A DNA stretch of 64,000 bases from Verrucomicrobiota bacterium. Its GTDB lineage: Bacteria; Verrucomicrobiota; Verrucomicrobiia; Palsa-1439. Under the pieces are notes generated by a model that saw only the letters and a program-made list of their open reading frames with translations, was not told where the DNA came from and did not search any database. The position numbers and the translations under genes are program-made. Positions 3,901-55,697 of the stretch are shown here, one piece after another; position 1 is the first letter of the stretch; each line of letters starts with the position of its first letter. Location: positions 1 to 64,000 of the forward strand of contig VHCW01000011.1 of assembly GCA_016871575.1 (NCBI GenBank), given 5' to 3'.

Positions 3901-4595
3901 CGATCACGCTGGCCGACTTGGATGGCGACGGCACCGAGGAGATTGTCATCGGCTGCGACAGTTGGCAATACATGGCCTATTCGCCGGCGCTGAAATTGAT
4001 TTGGAAGACCGTCTATTACGCCCACGGCGCGACGGTCGGCCACGTGGCCGACCTCGACGGCGACGGCCAACCGGAAATCATCGCCGGCAACGCCTATTAC
4101 GCGCTGCAAATCCTCAACAATCGAGGGAAGGTGGTCGCGCGCGGTTCAGGCTCGTTTGGGCCGGAACAGACGGCCGTGACTTCGTGCAAGGGCATGGCCA
4201 TTGTCGGCACCGACGGCGGCGCGGTGCTCGCGTTCGACGCGAAAGGCAGCCGGCTCTGGGAAACAAACGTCGGCGACCGGGTGACGACGTTGCGTTCCGA
4301 TGTCGTCGCCGGCAAACCGCGCATCATCGCGGCGTCCGAGAGCGGTTACGTCTGGGCGCTCGACGCGTTGGGCAAGACGATTTGGAAACGCGACCTCGGC
4401 GAGCCGGTCAGGCGTCTCGTGCGCGTCGGCGATGCTTATTTCGCCGCCGCGTCGGCCAACGGTGTCGTGCGGCTCTCGTTGGATGGAAAGGCCGAGGTGG
4501 TTGCGGCCACGACGGCAATGAATGTGGCGGTCAGCGGTGATCAAATCGTCGCGCTCACCGCAGATGGTTCTGCGGTTGGAGTAACAACACGCTGA
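918..4595 (+). CDS. Secreted heparinase II/III-like lyase with discoidin and beta-propeller domains
   Basis: A 1225-residue exported protein, probably a polysaccharide lyase or related glycan-active enzyme. A signal peptide (cleavage near VCA, residue 25) precedes an alpha/alpha-toroid region (about 180-480) and a heparinase II/III-like beta-sandwich with the motif GSHGHLDGNA at about residue 557. A discoidin-like (F5/8 type C) domain follows (about 785-905, containing ITLDLGEPRLVRQVRVLAWE), then a C-terminal propeller with two calcium-binding-type FG-GAP motifs (ADLDGDGTEE, ADLDGDGQPE) and PQQ/WD-like blades. An upstream in-frame extension to 528 exists, but the signal peptide and the promoter at 882-911 fix the start at 918 or 921. 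The substrate cannot be read from sequence. Confidence 0.85.
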   Translation: MMCPSFSLVRVASGFILAAASTVCADRAADDAAWDKLRIRQERPLLIETALVRNGAGAAAIVPADGEPWRGAAAKLQAAIAAKTGVTLPIVPPSKITDADWAGRHLVVIGNLLTNPVYARLYHNYFVCADAAYTGTGGYELRSVHDPWGLGRNVIVLGAQDAAGLEAGVARFVALGELKFGRVMELKFSKKGRRAPLEETLSKKGIADRKQGIADIYARPGTERGAAHNTIKFGMLYHRTGDAGWLELYRDAMRQHMNYYATNEYILETGPRRYDRDFRDSWAYGMVIAWDLVEEAPGWTDEERLKFTNHVLRMVWESNLYQGWDRPASLASWRKFDSITHNHHTWPGLADLFGGWYFSRHYKLPVAKDWLDIAFGMFRSCSRSWKPWEDSAGYQWIPQRHVLTYALASGDHTYIEQGHAAKTGKALLQAIDSLGRQPAWGDCGGFTSVSGMTELLCGLEYATGDGRYRWAIEWLGVDARDEMEAPFWTNAEPKLPSDLIGVSVTRLPKMHYDLFGRVKRSEIWQEPNLPFEDTFDKLTLRAGWGAEDDYLMLDGTSAGSHGHLDGNAIIAFTAAGAQWLVDAEYIRRIPKYHCGVTILRDGVSAVTPPSARLDQAVWSNNVGRTRTTMPHYNGMSWSRSIVFEPKRQVTVIDELTAEQPGDYSLRCCWRVAGEAKLEGDTLRAQQREKGFALRNLSGQRQELVYIKDFAGLPIHQLYQRQSKSLRAGETVRFVNVFAASKNGLPKLDASGTSSKHAPALAAPKSLPTLWRFADFPTTPKPLKVVSIRSDVAPRETYSPLERLIDGASNGSATSCMFPAGKVVNITLDLGEPRLVRQVRVLAWEKHDGWKADPGGDLLETGTQTSGNNVATIRAASPDQVTRHIRITGEPATSKSAVYLTEIEVLGETPGERPKLTALAGGVVGTEAGDIVALSATGKKLWQTKVDGAVTALAAGKGLVVYGTDTATLGVLGADGKKVAEVRPPMYRGVPSRVRTITLADLDGDGTEEIVIGCDSWQYMAYSPALKLIWKTVYYAHGATVGHVADLDGDGQPEIIAGNAYYALQILNNRGKVVARGSGSFGPEQTAVTSCKGMAIVGTDGGAVLAFDAKGSRLWETNVGDRVTTLRSDVVAGKPRIIAASESGYVWALDALGKTIWKRDLGEPVRRLVRVGDAYFAAASANGVVRLSLDGKAEVVAATTAMNVAVSGDQIVALTADGSAVGVTTR

Positions 4596-4605
4596 CGGAG
4601 CAACG

Positions 4606-5319
4606 TTACGGACGCATTGCGGATGGGATTCTCAGCATCGGCAATCCAAACAGAATGCTTTCCATCAGGCCCGGCCGTTGTTGCTCGATTCGCGCTGCTG
4701 CCGCCTTTTTCTCGGCCTCCAGCACGCGTTGCAGCATCACCTCAAGAGCGGGTTGTTCCTTTTCTTGTTCCAATGATGCTGACTGCATCGTGTCCGAGCT
4801 GTGTTCGGCCCACTGCCGCGGGTCGCGCGGTCGTTCCATCCGCGCCGCCAGGAGTTTTTTCACCTCTTTCATGGCGGTCTCCATGTCCACCGCGCTGGGA
4901 ATGCTCATCCCGATTTCCTTTTGGTCGCCGACCCGTCGGGACTGGTACAAATCGAGCAAATCCGTCACGTTCCGCGCCATGCGAGCCAGCCGCAACTCGC
5001 GTTCCTTGTGAATGAGCATGCGATACGCGCTCGGCAATTGGCTTTCGATCTTCATCGGTGAATAGACCACCAATCCCGTATTGTCGTTCCCCTCGCCAGC
5101 GCCGATCCTCAACCGCCGTTCGTAATCGCGCTCGATCTGGTCCTGTTGCACCTCGAAATACGCCGCCATCAGCAACCCAAACATCCGGTCTTGAAGGCGC
5201 AGTTCCGCTGCGGCCTGAGCCTGTTGCGCGTTAAGTTCGTCGGAAGGAGGAGTTTCCTTTGCGGACGCGACCGTCGCCATCATCATGCCGATCACCACCA
5301 CTTGAATCAAAAGTCTCAT
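4606..5319 (-). CDS. Secreted protein of unknown function
   Basis: A 237-residue protein with a clear signal peptide (MRLLIQVVVIGMMMATVASA, residues 1-20) and a charged, largely helical mature part rich in Glu, Arg and Gln. The start at 5319 was chosen because GGAGG lies 5 bp upstream; longer in-frame starts up to 5454 have no signal sequence and would overlap mutS. It ends 10 bp from the convergent heparinase-like gene and diverges from mutS. No family recognised. Confidence 0.7.
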   Translation of the reverse strand: MRLLIQVVVIGMMMATVASAKETPPSDELNAQQAQAAAELRLQDRMFGLLMAAYFEVQQDQIERDYERRLRIGAGEGNDNTGLVVYSPMKIESQLPSAYRMLIHKERELRLARMARNVTDLLDLYQSRRVGDQKEIGMSIPSAVDMETAMKEVKKLLAARMERPRDPRQWAEHSSDTMQSASLEQEKEQPALEVMLQRVLEAEKKAAAARIEQQRPGLMESILFGLPMLRIPSAMRP

Positions 5320-48825: not shown

Positions 48826-51800
48826 TCACTTGGCTTGCGCCACGGCGCTGGCGGGCAGGTCGGACTCGATGATGACACGGAAACCGACGTTGAAGGGGCG
48901 CTGCCAGTTCGGATAGCCCCAACGCCAAGAGGCGCGGGCGTCCTTCGGACGCTCGGCCCACGAGCCGCCGCGGATGACTTTGCGGCCGGGACGCGTGACG
49001 TAGTCGGAAGCGGTCCACTCGGCGACGTTGCCGATCATGTCGTGCAGGCCGAACGAGTTCGGCTGGTAGTGCGCGACCTGGGCGAGGTGGAGCGTGCCAT
49101 CGTTGAAACGGGCGTCTTTCAACTCGAAGTCCCAATACTTGTCGGGGTTCGGAATCGGCTGCGGGTTGACGCCTTTGACGGCCAGCTTCGTGATCTCCTT
49201 GTCGGCGAGGTTGGCGAACGGACTGAAATCGGTGTCGAGTCCACCGTAGAAGAACGGCGTCGCCGCGCCGGCGCGGGCGGCCCACTCCCATTGGTGCTCG
49301 GTCGGGAGCGTGACGCGCTTACCGGTCTTCGCGGAGAGCCAGCGGCAGAACGCCATCGCGTCGTCCCAACTGACGCGAATGACGGGGAACTTCGGGTTGT
49401 CCATCGCGTAGCCGGGGTTGACTTGGTCCTTGTAGTGGCGGTCGTAATAACCGTTGCGGTGATTCGGGTTGAACTGGCGGAACTGTTCCAGCGTGACCTC
49501 GGTCGTCGCCATCCAGAACGGTTTCTCGATGTCAACCTTCTGCTGCGGGAATTCGTCGCGCTCGCCGTTGACGTCGCCCATCACGTACGAGCCGGCGGGG
49601 ACCTTGCGCAACGTCATCGTGATGCCGGCGCCGAGGTCGAGCCTGGCTTCCTCGCCGAGCTGCGCGGCGAACGGCCACTTGGCGATGTTCACCGGTTGCG
49701 GACGCGGCGCTTCGGGCGCGGGCATGATGAACGTGGGGCGTGTGGCGGGTTGCGGTGGGATCGCTTCGAGATCTTCGTCAATGTTCGCGTAGATCTTCGC
49801 GCACTCACGGCGGCGCTGGGCGAAGTTGCTGGGAATCGGTTTCACTTCGGTCCACGTGCCGTGCGCGGGAACGTTCTGGTCAATCCACGTGATGATCCGG
49901 TCCCAGGCCTCGGCGTCGAGTTTTACGTTGTGGTGGCCCTTGATGAGCATCCGCACGAGCGGGCTGGTGTCGGCGTGGAACTCCAGCGGAACAAGCCCGG
50001 AGTAATCGCCTTCGGGGCCGCCGCGGCGGACGTACGGGTGCAACTCGGTGTACGAGATCGGGAAGTCGGCCATGCCGCCGCTGGTCTTGGTGACGGTTGC
50101 GTCGGCGAGGTTCGGGCGCCCCGACGTCTTGCCATCGTGGCAACCGGCGCAATACTTGTCGAGCACGGGCTGGACTTCGCGCACGAAACTGAATCCGCGA
50201 ATCGGGCCGCGCCACGGGGTCGGCTTGACGGGGGGCTGACGCACGGCCATGGCGGCGCGCGGCGGCGAGGCTTCATTCTGTTTCTCGTGGCAACCGACGC
50301 AGGAGACGCGTTCGCCCGGCATGCCGACGAACCAGCTTCGCATGAGTTGGAGCGCTTTGCCCTCGGCGTCGAGCGGCTGGAGCGCGACGGGCGTGTTGGC
50401 GGGAATCTCGAACCACGACGAGCCGTCCTCGTGGACGGGAACGGTGCCGATGACGCGGCGGACATCCCACGGGCCTTCAATGCCGACCTGATAGTGGCCG
50501 CCCATATTGCGGTAGGAATAATCGTAATAGTAGAGGCGCAAGCTCTTGACGACGCCGCGCGGGACGCCGTTGATGCCGCGGCCGGTGTGAACATCGGTGA
50601 GGAGAACGGTGGCGGTCTTTTCGCCGGGCTTGATGCGGTCGGGGATGACCTGCGGACGGAAACTCTTGTGGAGCGGGATCGGTTCGAACAGCGCCATCTT
50701 CGGTTCCTCGGCGATCAGGAGCATGTTGTCGAAGATGTCCACGATGTAGATGCCCCACTTCGAGTTGTTGGTCGGCTTCGCGGAAACGATGAACGTGGTC
50801 TGGCTGAGCGGTTTCGGGTGGAGGAACTTCGGCCAGGAACCTTGGACGAGTGCGTCAATGATCTTGCCTTCGACTTTCTTGCCGTAGCCGGGAATGCGCT
50901 GCACGGCGCCGGCGTCTTCCTGGCGACCGAGCGCGGTGTCGAAGATGACCATCTCGCCCATGCGCGGCACGCCGTGATGGCCGGTGACGATGCCGACGAA
51001 CTTCGTGTTGCTGCCGGGCAACGGGCGCGCGTAGAAAGTGCTGTTCGGCCAATACGATTCGCTGCCGTAGAACTCCGACTGGCCGGTGCCGTCGGGGTTC
51101 ATCCGCATCAGGACGCGCGAGAAATAATGCGCGGAGTCGGTGTATTCCCAGCGCAGATACATCACACGGCCGTCGGAGGTCAGCGTCGGGCACCAGTTGT
51201 TGTCCTGGTCGAACGTCAGCCGGCGGACGGCGGTGCCGTCGGGGTTCATCACGTGGAGGTTGCCGACGTAATCCCTGCCGCTGACGCAGGGCACGCCTTG
51301 GAAACCGGTGGAGGAAGTGAAGATGATCCGCTCGTCGGGAAGATAGACGCCTTCATAGCTGTCAATGTCCGCGTCCTTGCCCGTCGTGACCTGACGAAGC
51401 TTCGAGCCGTCCACGTTCATCTCGAAGACCTGCCACGAGCCATTGGCGATGGTCGAGGAGAAGAGCAGTTTCTGGGCATCGAAATGCAGGTGGATGTCGC
51501 CGACGAAGGCGGGCGACTGCGGCTTGTAAATGGTCTGGATCGTTGGGTTGGGCTGGCGGATGTTGAGCGCGGCGATTTCGTTGTCCACGTTCTTCTTGAG
51601 GCTGGAGTTGCCCTGCCAATTCTGCGGCAACGCGAGGTAACTTTCGCTCCGGCGTATCAATAGGATGTGGTTGAAATCAATCTCCGGGTTCGCCAGCATC
51701 GCTTCGCGCTTGAGCGCATTGAACTGTTCGGGAACGAAACTCTTCTCCAGCACCGCGAGCCGGCTCAGGTACTCGGCAGCCTTCGGGTAGCGTTGGCCGT

Positions 51801-52008
51801 GGGTCTTGCCGAGATACTCGATGGCGCGACGAAGCGCCGCCGCCTGCTCCGCCGGCGTCTGGACCTGTGCCGGCTGCGTCGGCTCTCCGATGGTCCTCTT
51901 CGGGTTGTCCTTTTTCTCCCGCCTATTCTGTTGTTTCGCCGCTTGTGCCGAGGTGATCAGCAATAGCGCCGTGAACATCGCAGTCAATCGTATGTGTATT
52001 GTTCTCAT
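48826..52008 (-). CDS. HzsA-related dihaem protein fused to a SUMF1 (FGE-like) domain
   Basis: A 1060-residue exported protein. Signal peptide (LTAMFTALLLITSAQA) is followed by a TolB/propeller-like region (about 150-420), an HzsA-type middle region with haem c motifs CVGCH (about 569) and CAGCH (about 619), and a C-terminal SUMF1 domain (about 783-1055: VPAGSYVMGDVNGERDEFPQ, GNVAEWTASDY, RGGSWAERPKDA). The Cys pair needed for formylglycine generation is absent from the SUMF1 active-site segment, so it is unlikely to activate sulfatases. It overlaps the agarase-like gene by 4 bp. Confidence 0.88.
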   Translation of the reverse strand: MRTIHIRLTAMFTALLLITSAQAAKQQNRREKKDNPKRTIGEPTQPAQVQTPAEQAAALRRAIEYLGKTHGQRYPKAAEYLSRLAVLEKSFVPEQFNALKREAMLANPEIDFNHILLIRRSESYLALPQNWQGNSSLKKNVDNEIAALNIRQPNPTIQTIYKPQSPAFVGDIHLHFDAQKLLFSSTIANGSWQVFEMNVDGSKLRQVTTGKDADIDSYEGVYLPDERIIFTSSTGFQGVPCVSGRDYVGNLHVMNPDGTAVRRLTFDQDNNWCPTLTSDGRVMYLRWEYTDSAHYFSRVLMRMNPDGTGQSEFYGSESYWPNSTFYARPLPGSNTKFVGIVTGHHGVPRMGEMVIFDTALGRQEDAGAVQRIPGYGKKVEGKIIDALVQGSWPKFLHPKPLSQTTFIVSAKPTNNSKWGIYIVDIFDNMLLIAEEPKMALFEPIPLHKSFRPQVIPDRIKPGEKTATVLLTDVHTGRGINGVPRGVVKSLRLYYYDYSYRNMGGHYQVGIEGPWDVRRVIGTVPVHEDGSSWFEIPANTPVALQPLDAEGKALQLMRSWFVGMPGERVSCVGCHEKQNEASPPRAAMAVRQPPVKPTPWRGPIRGFSFVREVQPVLDKYCAGCHDGKTSGRPNLADATVTKTSGGMADFPISYTELHPYVRRGGPEGDYSGLVPLEFHADTSPLVRMLIKGHHNVKLDAEAWDRIITWIDQNVPAHGTWTEVKPIPSNFAQRRRECAKIYANIDEDLEAIPPQPATRPTFIMPAPEAPRPQPVNIAKWPFAAQLGEEARLDLGAGITMTLRKVPAGSYVMGDVNGERDEFPQQKVDIEKPFWMATTEVTLEQFRQFNPNHRNGYYDRHYKDQVNPGYAMDNPKFPVIRVSWDDAMAFCRWLSAKTGKRVTLPTEHQWEWAARAGAATPFFYGGLDTDFSPFANLADKEITKLAVKGVNPQPIPNPDKYWDFELKDARFNDGTLHLAQVAHYQPNSFGLHDMIGNVAEWTASDYVTRPGRKVIRGGSWAERPKDARASWRWGYPNWQRPFNVGFRVIIESDLPASAVAQAK

Positions 52009-54835: not shown

Positions 54836-54854
54836 CCGGAACAATACCGGAACA
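54836..54854. promoter_or_regulatory. Direct repeat CCGGAACA (11-bp spacing) at the fucosidase start
   Basis: CCGGAACA at 54836-54843 and 54847-54854, one helical turn apart and overlapping the possible -10 TATTGT (minus strand, 54846-54841). A related pair, CCGGAAC and CCGGACC, is at 62365-62382 downstream of the PPC gene. May be an operator or simply part of a duplicated block. Confidence 0.45.
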
Positions 54855-55060
54855 TTTGGTAGTGGTACAGTTTGAACGTCTGACAACCCGCCTACGGCGG
54901 ACAAGTCGCCAACTACGTTCAATGAAGCGGCGCAGGATATGACAAGCGATTATAGTCAATCACTGAGATTCCGGCTCCTATGCTGTCGCTCCGCAGTGAG
55001 AGCAGGACTGGAGGGCGGGTTCGACGGGATGGCCGACGGGATGGCCGACGGGCCAGGGTT

Positions 55061-55291
55061 TCAAGCAGCGCGGTGAAGTTTGGCTTTGGCGATGCTGACG
55101 AGGGAGCGCAACGCGGCGTTGACGGACCGCTCGTCGGGAAAATACTCCGCCACATCCGGAGACAGCAGAACCAAATTCGTGCCGGCTTTGAATCGCTCGG
55201 CATACTTGCCTCGGACTCCCCCCTTCAACAGGGCCAGATCGTACTCCGGCCGCAACTCATCTTGTGTCTGTTTGTCAACGTGCTTCTTCAT
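55061..55291 (-). CDS. Putative antitoxin partner of the BrnT-like toxin
   Basis: A 76-residue protein (KTQDELRPEYDL-like start, LKGGVRGKYAERFKAGTNLV, LSPDVAEYFPDERSVNAALR). This type is often seen beside BrnT-like toxins and differs from the ribbon-helix-helix BrnA. It overlaps the toxin gene by 17 bp and lies downstream of it, the same toxin-first order as brnTA. Located inside the insertion unit at 54858-55689. Confidence 0.75.
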   Translation of the reverse strand: MKKHVDKQTQDELRPEYDLALLKGGVRGKYAERFKAGTNLVLLSPDVAEYFPDERSVNAALRSLVSIAKAKLHRAA

Positions 55292-55550
55292 AATGTTTTC
55301 TTTCGCGCCGTGTGGTTTGACGGGCGTTGATGATGCGGATGTTCTCACCCCGGTCGGTGTGCGCGACAATCAACACTCGGCCACTCCGCGCCATGCCGAC
55401 GGTGATGAACCGTTGTTCCGTCATAGAGTGGTCAGGATCAGGATACGTTAGCGCCAGTGGATCGCCCAACACCGTGGCCGCTTCCTGAAACGACACACCA
55501 TGTTTGCGCTGGTTCCGTTCGGCTTTCGCTGCATCCCACTCAAACTTCAT
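55275..55550 (-). CDS. BrnT family toxin (ribonuclease)
   Basis: A 91-residue RelE-superfamily toxin of the BrnT (DUF497) family. MKFEWDAAKAERNQRKHGVS and FQEAATVLGDPLAL at the N-terminus, then RFITVGMARSGRVLIVAHTD and IRIINARQTTRRERKHYE at the end carry the usual active-site Arg/His/Glu pattern. Start 55550 by family length; ATG 55559 adds three residues. BrnT toxins cleave mRNA and are neutralised by the paired antitoxin. Confidence 0.88.
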   Translation of the reverse strand: MKFEWDAAKAERNQRKHGVSFQEAATVLGDPLALTYPDPDHSMTEQRFITVGMARSGRVLIVAHTDRGENIRIINARQTTRRERKHYEEAR

Positions 55551-55697
55551 CGCCTGCATTCTACCCGGCAATGTCACCGCCTGCAACCGCGTTTCCAGCC
55601 GACTTCAGTTTGCCGCATACGACAGCGGCATCTCGCCAGGCCTGTTCCGCCTTTACTTCGCCTGAGGAAGTTCAAGCTGTACCACTGCCGAACATTT

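Follow-up and report, generated by a model that had tools for sequence, protein, structure and literature searches.

The window analysed here, a stretch of 64,000 nucleotides from a Verrucomicrobiota bacterium, contains an insertion unit of 832 bp (window 54858-55689) located between an alpha-L-fucosidase gene (PF01120) and an esterase-like gene; it lies upstream of the former, whose likely start is 25 bp away. Both neighbouring genes and the two cargo genes of the unit lie on the minus strand. The features of the locus are as follows:

54850..54857, no strand: left copy of the 8-bp target-site duplication, GAACATTT (from the sequence and the 8-mer pair listing)
54858..54877, plus strand: left terminal inverted repeat, GGTAGTGGTACAGTTTGAAC, matching an end of the transposase-bearing element L060 at 20/20 positions
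55022..55052, no strand: perfect tandem repeat of a 12-bp unit (2.6 copies), lying between the stop codon of the antitoxin-like gene and the left end
55061..55291, minus strand: antitoxin-like gene, 76 aa, without a Pfam family; it adjoins BrnT in some related genomes too
55275..55550, minus strand: brnT toxin gene, probably starting with the ATG at 55550, the longest ORF beginning at 55586 (PF04365, 2.8e-28; PDB 7vd7, 6.7e-16)
55609..55635, no strand: 27-bp repeat with an inverted core, upstream of brnT, with 2 mismatches to copies in same-family genomes
55670..55689, minus strand: right terminal inverted repeat, reverse complement GGCAGTGGTACAGCTTGAAC, 18/20 to L060
55690..55697, no strand: right copy of the 8-bp target-site duplication, GAACATTT (from the sequence and the 8-mer pair listing)

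An earlier note, made from the sequence alone, had described a unit of this size with inverted ends and a direct repeat, and this architecture was confirmed at the same positions: the 20-bp ends are inverted with 18 of 20 positions matched, and a perfect 8-bp direct repeat (GAACATTT) abuts both of them on the outside. To place this arrangement against the remainder of the window, all identical 8-mer pairs 48-6008 bases apart were listed and the inverted matches just inside each pair were counted. The cassette pair was the only one of the 17,565 pairs to exceed 14/20 inverted matches, with 18/20 as against 14/20 for the next best, and the merged end pattern was found at no further place in the window at up to three mismatches. 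The G+C content of the unit is 58%, as compared to 59% and 63% in the 2-kb flanks, and base composition therefore does not set the unit apart from its surroundings. Rfam gave no match in the region at the gathering score.

The ORF at 55275-55586 (minus strand) belongs to the BrnT toxin family, matching Pfam PF04365 with 98.5 bits (cut-off 34.5) across the full profile (1-77 of 77). A search of solved structures with the default limit matched it to toxin 7vd7 only, in an alignment that begins at the ATG at 55550. The antitoxin-like gene starts within the end of brnT, with which it overlaps by 17 nt. The 76-aa product has no Pfam match and no solved-structure relative at E 1, and its longer ORF is likewise without a match in Pfam or NCBIfam; the gene thus falls outside the recognised BrnA families of the BrnT-BrnA type II system. 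Homologues of it are, however, located next to BrnT at 6 of 26 other BrnT places (some of these stretches end at contig ends), which makes it a credible partner of the toxin. No transposase was identified in the unit when it was searched by tblastn with 13 transposases (best E = 0.04). The earlier description of a BrnT-like toxin and an overlapping antitoxin gene as the sole content holds. PADLOC, which was given 20 proteins with the window BrnT among them, returned no match for the latter. Toxin and antitoxin are presumably both active and co-expressed in the cassette, and the pair may act to stabilise the unit.

Several further features of the region were observed. Copies of the 27-bp repeat (window 55609-55635) that differ from it by 2 mismatches are present at seven places, spread over five further genomes of the family (L135-L138, L140, L144 and L145), where most copies then run into GACTCGGC; it bears a likeness to a dispersed REP-like element. 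The esterase-like gene upstream of the cassette (window 55758-57782, minus strand) contains an internal duplication with 67% identity over 188 residues, and window 48826-52008 (minus strand) encodes a 1060-aa protein combining a hydrazine-synthase-alpha-like middle domain with a sulfatase-modifying-factor-like domain.

Transposase-bearing elements with the same ends

When one genome per species was scanned for the end, 38 stretches were obtained, of which three (L028, L039 and L060) displayed paired ends with a duplication of at least 7/8 and three more (L024, L049 and L059) displayed paired ends without a good duplication; for 12 of the 38, the search was extended to the genome concerned. Many of the single ends among these stretches may be due to chance or decay. 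The element L060, present in a Xanthobacteraceae MAG, spans 2993 bp, encodes a transposase of 291 aa and has an exact 8-bp duplication, and its two ends are identical to the left end of the window unit at 20/20 and 19/20 positions; the window right end matches L060 at 18/20. Relatives of the L060 transposase are present in 13 of 113 genomes related to that of the window. Twenty regions, drawn from relatives of this transposase and from end-bearing genomes, provided ten further paired elements, one of which (L104) encodes an internally deleted transposase of 145 aa. Three further elements were obtained from genomes of Acidobacteria and Alphaproteobacteria, and three more from plasmids of Acidiphilium, Mesorhizobium and Hoeflea; for the plasmids, nine records carried a relative and six regions were examined, three of which gave a pair. 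The enzyme is annotated as 'IS1 family transposase' in 3 of the 9 records, namely those with delimitable elements. A set of 20 regions chosen for their ends additionally gave pairs in L251, L253 and L256, and a weak fourth in L252. The loci in which paired ends with duplications were found thus belong to Acidobacteria, to Alphaproteobacteria, to a planctomycete genome and to the class of the window itself.

Sixteen elements combine such ends and 8-bp duplications with a full-length IS1-superfamily transposase. Their inverted ends match at 17-20 of 20 positions, and the direct repeats are exact in 15 of the 16 and 7/8 in L091, the pair search having required a duplication with at most one mismatch. 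With few exceptions the ends share GGTAGTG....A.TTTG, positions 8-11 and 13 being the most variable. The elements are 2.26-6.69 kb in length, which leaves room for passengers in each of them beside a transposase gene of about 0.85 kb. Residues D72, D144 and E208 are invariant in all 16 aligned transposases and may constitute the catalytic triad. The IS1 profile scan covered the enzyme of L060 out of the 16, and this enzyme scored below the curated cut-offs of both the NCBIfam IS1 model NF033558 (E 7.3e-14, 52.2 bits, cut-off 100) and the Pfam IS1 domain PF03400 (20.6, cut-off 24.1). For this reason, these elements are referred to as an IS1-superfamily group and not as members of the IS1 family. 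A PDB search with the transposase alignment returned nothing at E 0.1. Judged from the shared ends, this IS1-superfamily group of cargo-carrying transposons is the likely owner of the ends found in the window; the search for an IS with the same ends proposed in the earlier note was thus positive, with 16 elements carrying an IS1-type transposase and a piece in the same genus (see below).

The specificity of the paired arrangement was evaluated using control sequences of the same length as the end. Across 293 loci totalling 1.32 Mb, from which copies of the window had been excluded, the pair-finder detected 24 distinct pairs with exact 8-bp duplications for the real end and none for each of four control sequences, which shows that duplication-flanked end pairs do not arise by chance; the loci had partly been picked for holding the end, and the comparison thus speaks to chance and not to frequency. 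Single ends, in contrast, were rejected as evidence since the reversed control came near or above the real count: with one mismatch at most, the pattern matched 48 places (in 27 genomes out of 384) and the reversed control 35, and with two mismatches 20 places were found as against 29. The evidence used here is accordingly that of paired ends with duplications.

Recognisable toxin or defence-type profiles were present in the cargo of 8 of the 16 elements. These comprise PD-Lambda-2_B in L085 and L211, RmrA in L087 and L212 (the latter also with RmrT), GmrSD_N in L090, PIN in L091, Fic and SoFic in L199, and an NYN nuclease domain in L195, the last being the weakest claim of the eight. An AbiEii match in L060 fell below the cut-off and is outside this count. 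In the ORFs scanned, which represent part of those of each element other than L096, no toxin or defence-type match was obtained for L086, L088, L092, L095, L196 and L210; L086, L088 and L210 carry serine-protease family cargo, and L196 gave only a helix-turn-helix and a weak PADLOC candidate match. As a plain count within these elements, the figures are only suggestive of an enrichment of toxin and defence genes in the cargo.

Copies, insertion sites and units without a working transposase

The draft genome from which the window derives contains no second copy of the 832-bp unit, no match to the group transposase at E 0.01, and no clear further end (two more places at 3 mismatches, as against 7 for the reversed control). 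Further copies of the cassette, which the earlier note had suggested looking for, were not recovered from the class either: in the 384 genomes searched, with at most two candidates scored per genome, none of the other 383 yielded a full copy, and what matched the cassette in them were genes for BrnT and antitoxin, the short repeat or brief stretches of sequence. One further genome of the genus, G001, was among those listed. In it, an end with two mismatches to the pattern is located at C126:4401-4420 and is adjoined at 4422-4694 by a transposase C-terminus that shares 78% identity with its L085 counterpart over 87 residues; the contig ends at 4822. These pieces, although partial, suggest that a transposase reading such ends has probably been present in the genus.

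BrnT relatives were identified in 19 of 113 genomes, a count that includes the genome of the window. The window's locus apart, the end scan detected no such ends at the BrnT loci of relatives, and a looser test of 13 BrnT loci (11 places) detected no duplication-flanked ends. The flanks examined of four fucosidase orthologues (L147-L150, 72-79% identity) are without a match to the gene upstream in the window, and no empty site of the cassette was found.

Five units without a working transposase were delimited elsewhere (L028, L253, L256, L049 and L104). No trace of a transposase was detected in L028 and L253 at E 1e-4, and remnants are present in the other three, as a C-terminal scrap in L256 and L049 and as an internally deleted gene in L104. 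Together with L024, these units are:

L028: Acidobacteria, 539 bp, GAACTTCT duplicated; one LIC_13387-family gene
L024: 540 bp, with a gene like that of L028, without a clear duplication
L253: 477 bp, CAGAGTTT duplication; one 116-aa gene; right end only 13/18
L256: 938 bp, GAAGCGTT duplication; a 227-aa gene and the transposase C-terminal scrap; left end only 12/18
L049: 1005 bp, poor duplication; an acetyltransferase gene and the transposase C-terminal scrap
L104: internally shortened transposase; cargo, ends and 8-bp duplication kept

Both flanks of L256 align in the sibling genome G120 with 56 bp between them, as compared to 1018 bp in G244; G120 therefore lacks the insert in the orthologous interval. 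Across the joined flanks 289 of 398 positions of G120 aligned, with gaps, and the target octamer is not kept. The evidence for an empty site is less clear in G279, G162 and G293 than in G120: both flanks lie on one contig in these genomes, with 807, 619 and 1161 bp, respectively, of other DNA in the interval, and in G279 only 16 left-flank bases align over the junction, around a single GGAAGCG. At the L253 locus, the flanking matches in other genomes are heavily broken. Additionally, the part of L256 with the transposase scrap has many short, scattered matches in six genomes of family f32 (G279, G167, G298, G120, G219 and G293), a sign of numerous decayed copies of the transposon group.

Origin of the unit and relation to known systems

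The unit possesses IS-related ends, a target-site duplication and passenger genes and has no transposase gene, as is characteristic of a mobile insertion cassette. We consider it to be such a cassette, a transposase-less member of the IS1-superfamily group of cargo-carrying transposons, with a probability of roughly 0.87; the earlier proposal of a transposase-less insertion whose sole cargo is a toxin-antitoxin pair is thereby supported. The ends, the duplication, the gene content and the group of transposases owning such ends elsewhere were observed directly, and the odds for this reading rest on the ends and are unchanged by the weaker empty-site evidence at L256. In the proposed course of events, an IS1-type transposase recognising ends of the form GGTAGTGGTACAGTTTGAA would have bound both ends of the unit, cut or copied it and integrated it at a target with an 8-bp stagger, such that insertion 25 bp upstream of the fucosidase gene start would have duplicated these 8 bp. 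The sole cargo, BrnT (an RNase by family) and its overlapping antitoxin, would then favour retention of the unit; alternatively, the pair might serve in a host stress or anti-phage response.

How the unit came to be without a transposase is a separate matter, for which movement with the enzyme supplied in trans has a little better than an even chance as opposed to loss of the transposase after insertion. Clean single-cargo units recur in other genomes, L028 and L253 being as devoid of a transposase trace as the window unit itself (best tblastn E 0.04), and these speak for mobilisation in trans. Loss in place, on the other hand, is favoured by elements whose transposase is partly deleted, and a complete element with BrnT and antitoxin as passengers could have arrived and lost its transposase by internal deletion to become a stranded relic. 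This course of events, to which we attach clearly less than even odds, would fit with L104, where the transposase is shortened inside but cargo, ends and duplication are kept, with L256 and L049, which retain only the C-terminal scrap, and with the window's genome being without the group transposase.

Two explanations that dispense with the IS1-superfamily group altogether appear improbable. The ends could stem from a different family of transposons that also generates 8-bp duplications, their likeness to the IS1-type elements being due to chance, and the sub-threshold IS1 profile matches of the L060 transposase could be taken in this sense; however, the 20/20 and 18/20 identity of the two ends to L060, a transposase-bearing element of what appears to be another phylum, and the 24 real pairs against no control pairs make this highly unlikely. 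Even less credible is a coincidence of repeats around an ordinary chromosomal toxin-antitoxin locus. BrnT without such ends is indeed common in relatives (19 of 113 genomes hold BrnT, and 0 of 13 loci have duplication-flanked ends), yet the combination of 18/20 ends and an exact 8-bp repeat is unique among the 17,565 8-mer pairs of the window, and the cassette ends match those of transposase-bearing elements. Returning to the mobile cassette, a broader proposal can be put forward tentatively, at somewhat less than even odds: the IS1-type group may act as a widespread shuttle of single toxin-antitoxin or anti-phage modules between phyla, its ends being strongly conserved, and may shed transposase-less cassettes that spread in trans and in which the toxin-antitoxin pair replaces the transposase as the means of persistence.

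IS1 elements are under 1 kb in size and generate duplications of 8-9 bp, a range into which the 8-bp duplications of the transposase-bearing relatives fit. The latter also resemble the IS1 family in the transposase profile match, the three invariant acidic residues and the GG at the ends, but differ from it in their length (2.26-6.69 kb) and in the L060 profile score, which is below the cut-off. Transporter IS (tIS) and the IS1595 family, the latter reportedly described by Siguier and others in 2009, share with the present group the presence of passenger genes unrelated to transposition in IS-type elements. The L060 transposase matches the IS1595 profile weakly (5.6e-5); unlike in tIS, it scores best with the IS1 model, and the window unit has no transposase. 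MIC231 of Bacillus cereus is an example of a mobile insertion cassette, from which the window unit differs in its IS1-superfamily ends, 8-bp duplication and toxin-antitoxin cargo.

Tn7-like transposons differ from the cassette group in machinery and size. Passages of one study describe their cargo as rich in defence and toxin genes, with a BrnT count of 5 (PMC8649781), so that BrnT cargo is shared with the window cassette although the transposon family is another. Mobile insertion cassettes, in the sense in which ISsaga uses the term (PMC3129680), have in common with the window unit IS-type ends, a passenger gene and the lack of a transposase, and qnrS2 cassettes of Aeromonas and IncQ-3 plasmids are further published cassettes of this kind, with 5-bp repeats in IncQ-3 (excerpts of PMC4444841 and PMC7557826). 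Tn3-family transposons and TIMEs are comparable in that toxin-antitoxin pairs reside inside transposons (PMC7157771, in part) and transposase-less, cargo-carrying derivatives exist (PMC4133298, in part). Their ends are 38 bp or longer and TIME duplications are 5-6 bp according to the same excerpts, as opposed to 20 bp and 8 bp in the window unit; an identity as a Tn3-derived TIME was therefore rejected. The text of PMC7157771 on Tn3-family toxin-antitoxin passengers does not include BrnT, and a portion of PMC5736529 concerns a cassette inserted into a toxin gene and not one carrying a pair.

IS with passengers (tIS) and transposase-less cassettes (MICs) are thus already in print (passages of PMC3129680 and PMC9330008), as are toxin-antitoxin pairs in the Tn3 family and BrnT in Tn7-like cargo. 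A published account of an IS1-type group with toxin or defence genes as passengers, or of such ends around a BrnT cassette, was not seen among the matches listed in a literature search of titles, abstract starts and passages, subscription papers being mostly outside its scope. The vehicle of mobile toxin-antitoxin and defence genes is often unknown, and the present one is minimal and readable base by base, comprising two 20-bp ends and a gene pair; the type of enzyme that probably acts on it was recognised in other genomes. As the cassette holds no other gene, it renders testable the debated question of whether a toxin-antitoxin pair aids the persistence of a transposon, and its end sequence can be used by annotators to search for such cassettes.

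Small proteins and short derivatives associated with such ends

A small basic protein with a GGLKGGKAR...ARWK-like motif is encoded in 8 of the 16 transposons (L060:5682-5981, L085:6173-6466, L087:6337-6606, L088:2257-2484, L196:4645-4881, L211:2078-2287, L212:1836-2072 and the N-terminal part of L195:3058-4146), and is annotated as histone H1 in L211. The three of these proteins that were tested (L060, L085 and L088) match no Pfam family; they might represent an accessory transposition or DNA-binding factor. In a second branch of the group, a conserved protein of 99-112 aa directly follows the transposase gene (L090:3461-3781, L091:6447-6767, L092:4494-4802, L095:3357-3656 and L096:3347-3685), the two tested being without a Pfam family above the cut-off.

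Furthermore, palindromes of 35-37 bp composed of two such ends back to back were observed at L021/L188 (G018:C13:64678-64712), L039:4169-4204 and L180 (G390:C10:5517-5553), flanked by 8-bp duplications that are exact in two cases and 7/8 in L039. They resemble scars left by near-precise excision, or else derivatives reduced to the minimum size possible. MITE-like units of 79 bp and 123 bp with the same ends are present in L171 (G388:C103), L059, L220 and L251, and L059 contains two 79-bp copies whose starts are 422 bp apart.
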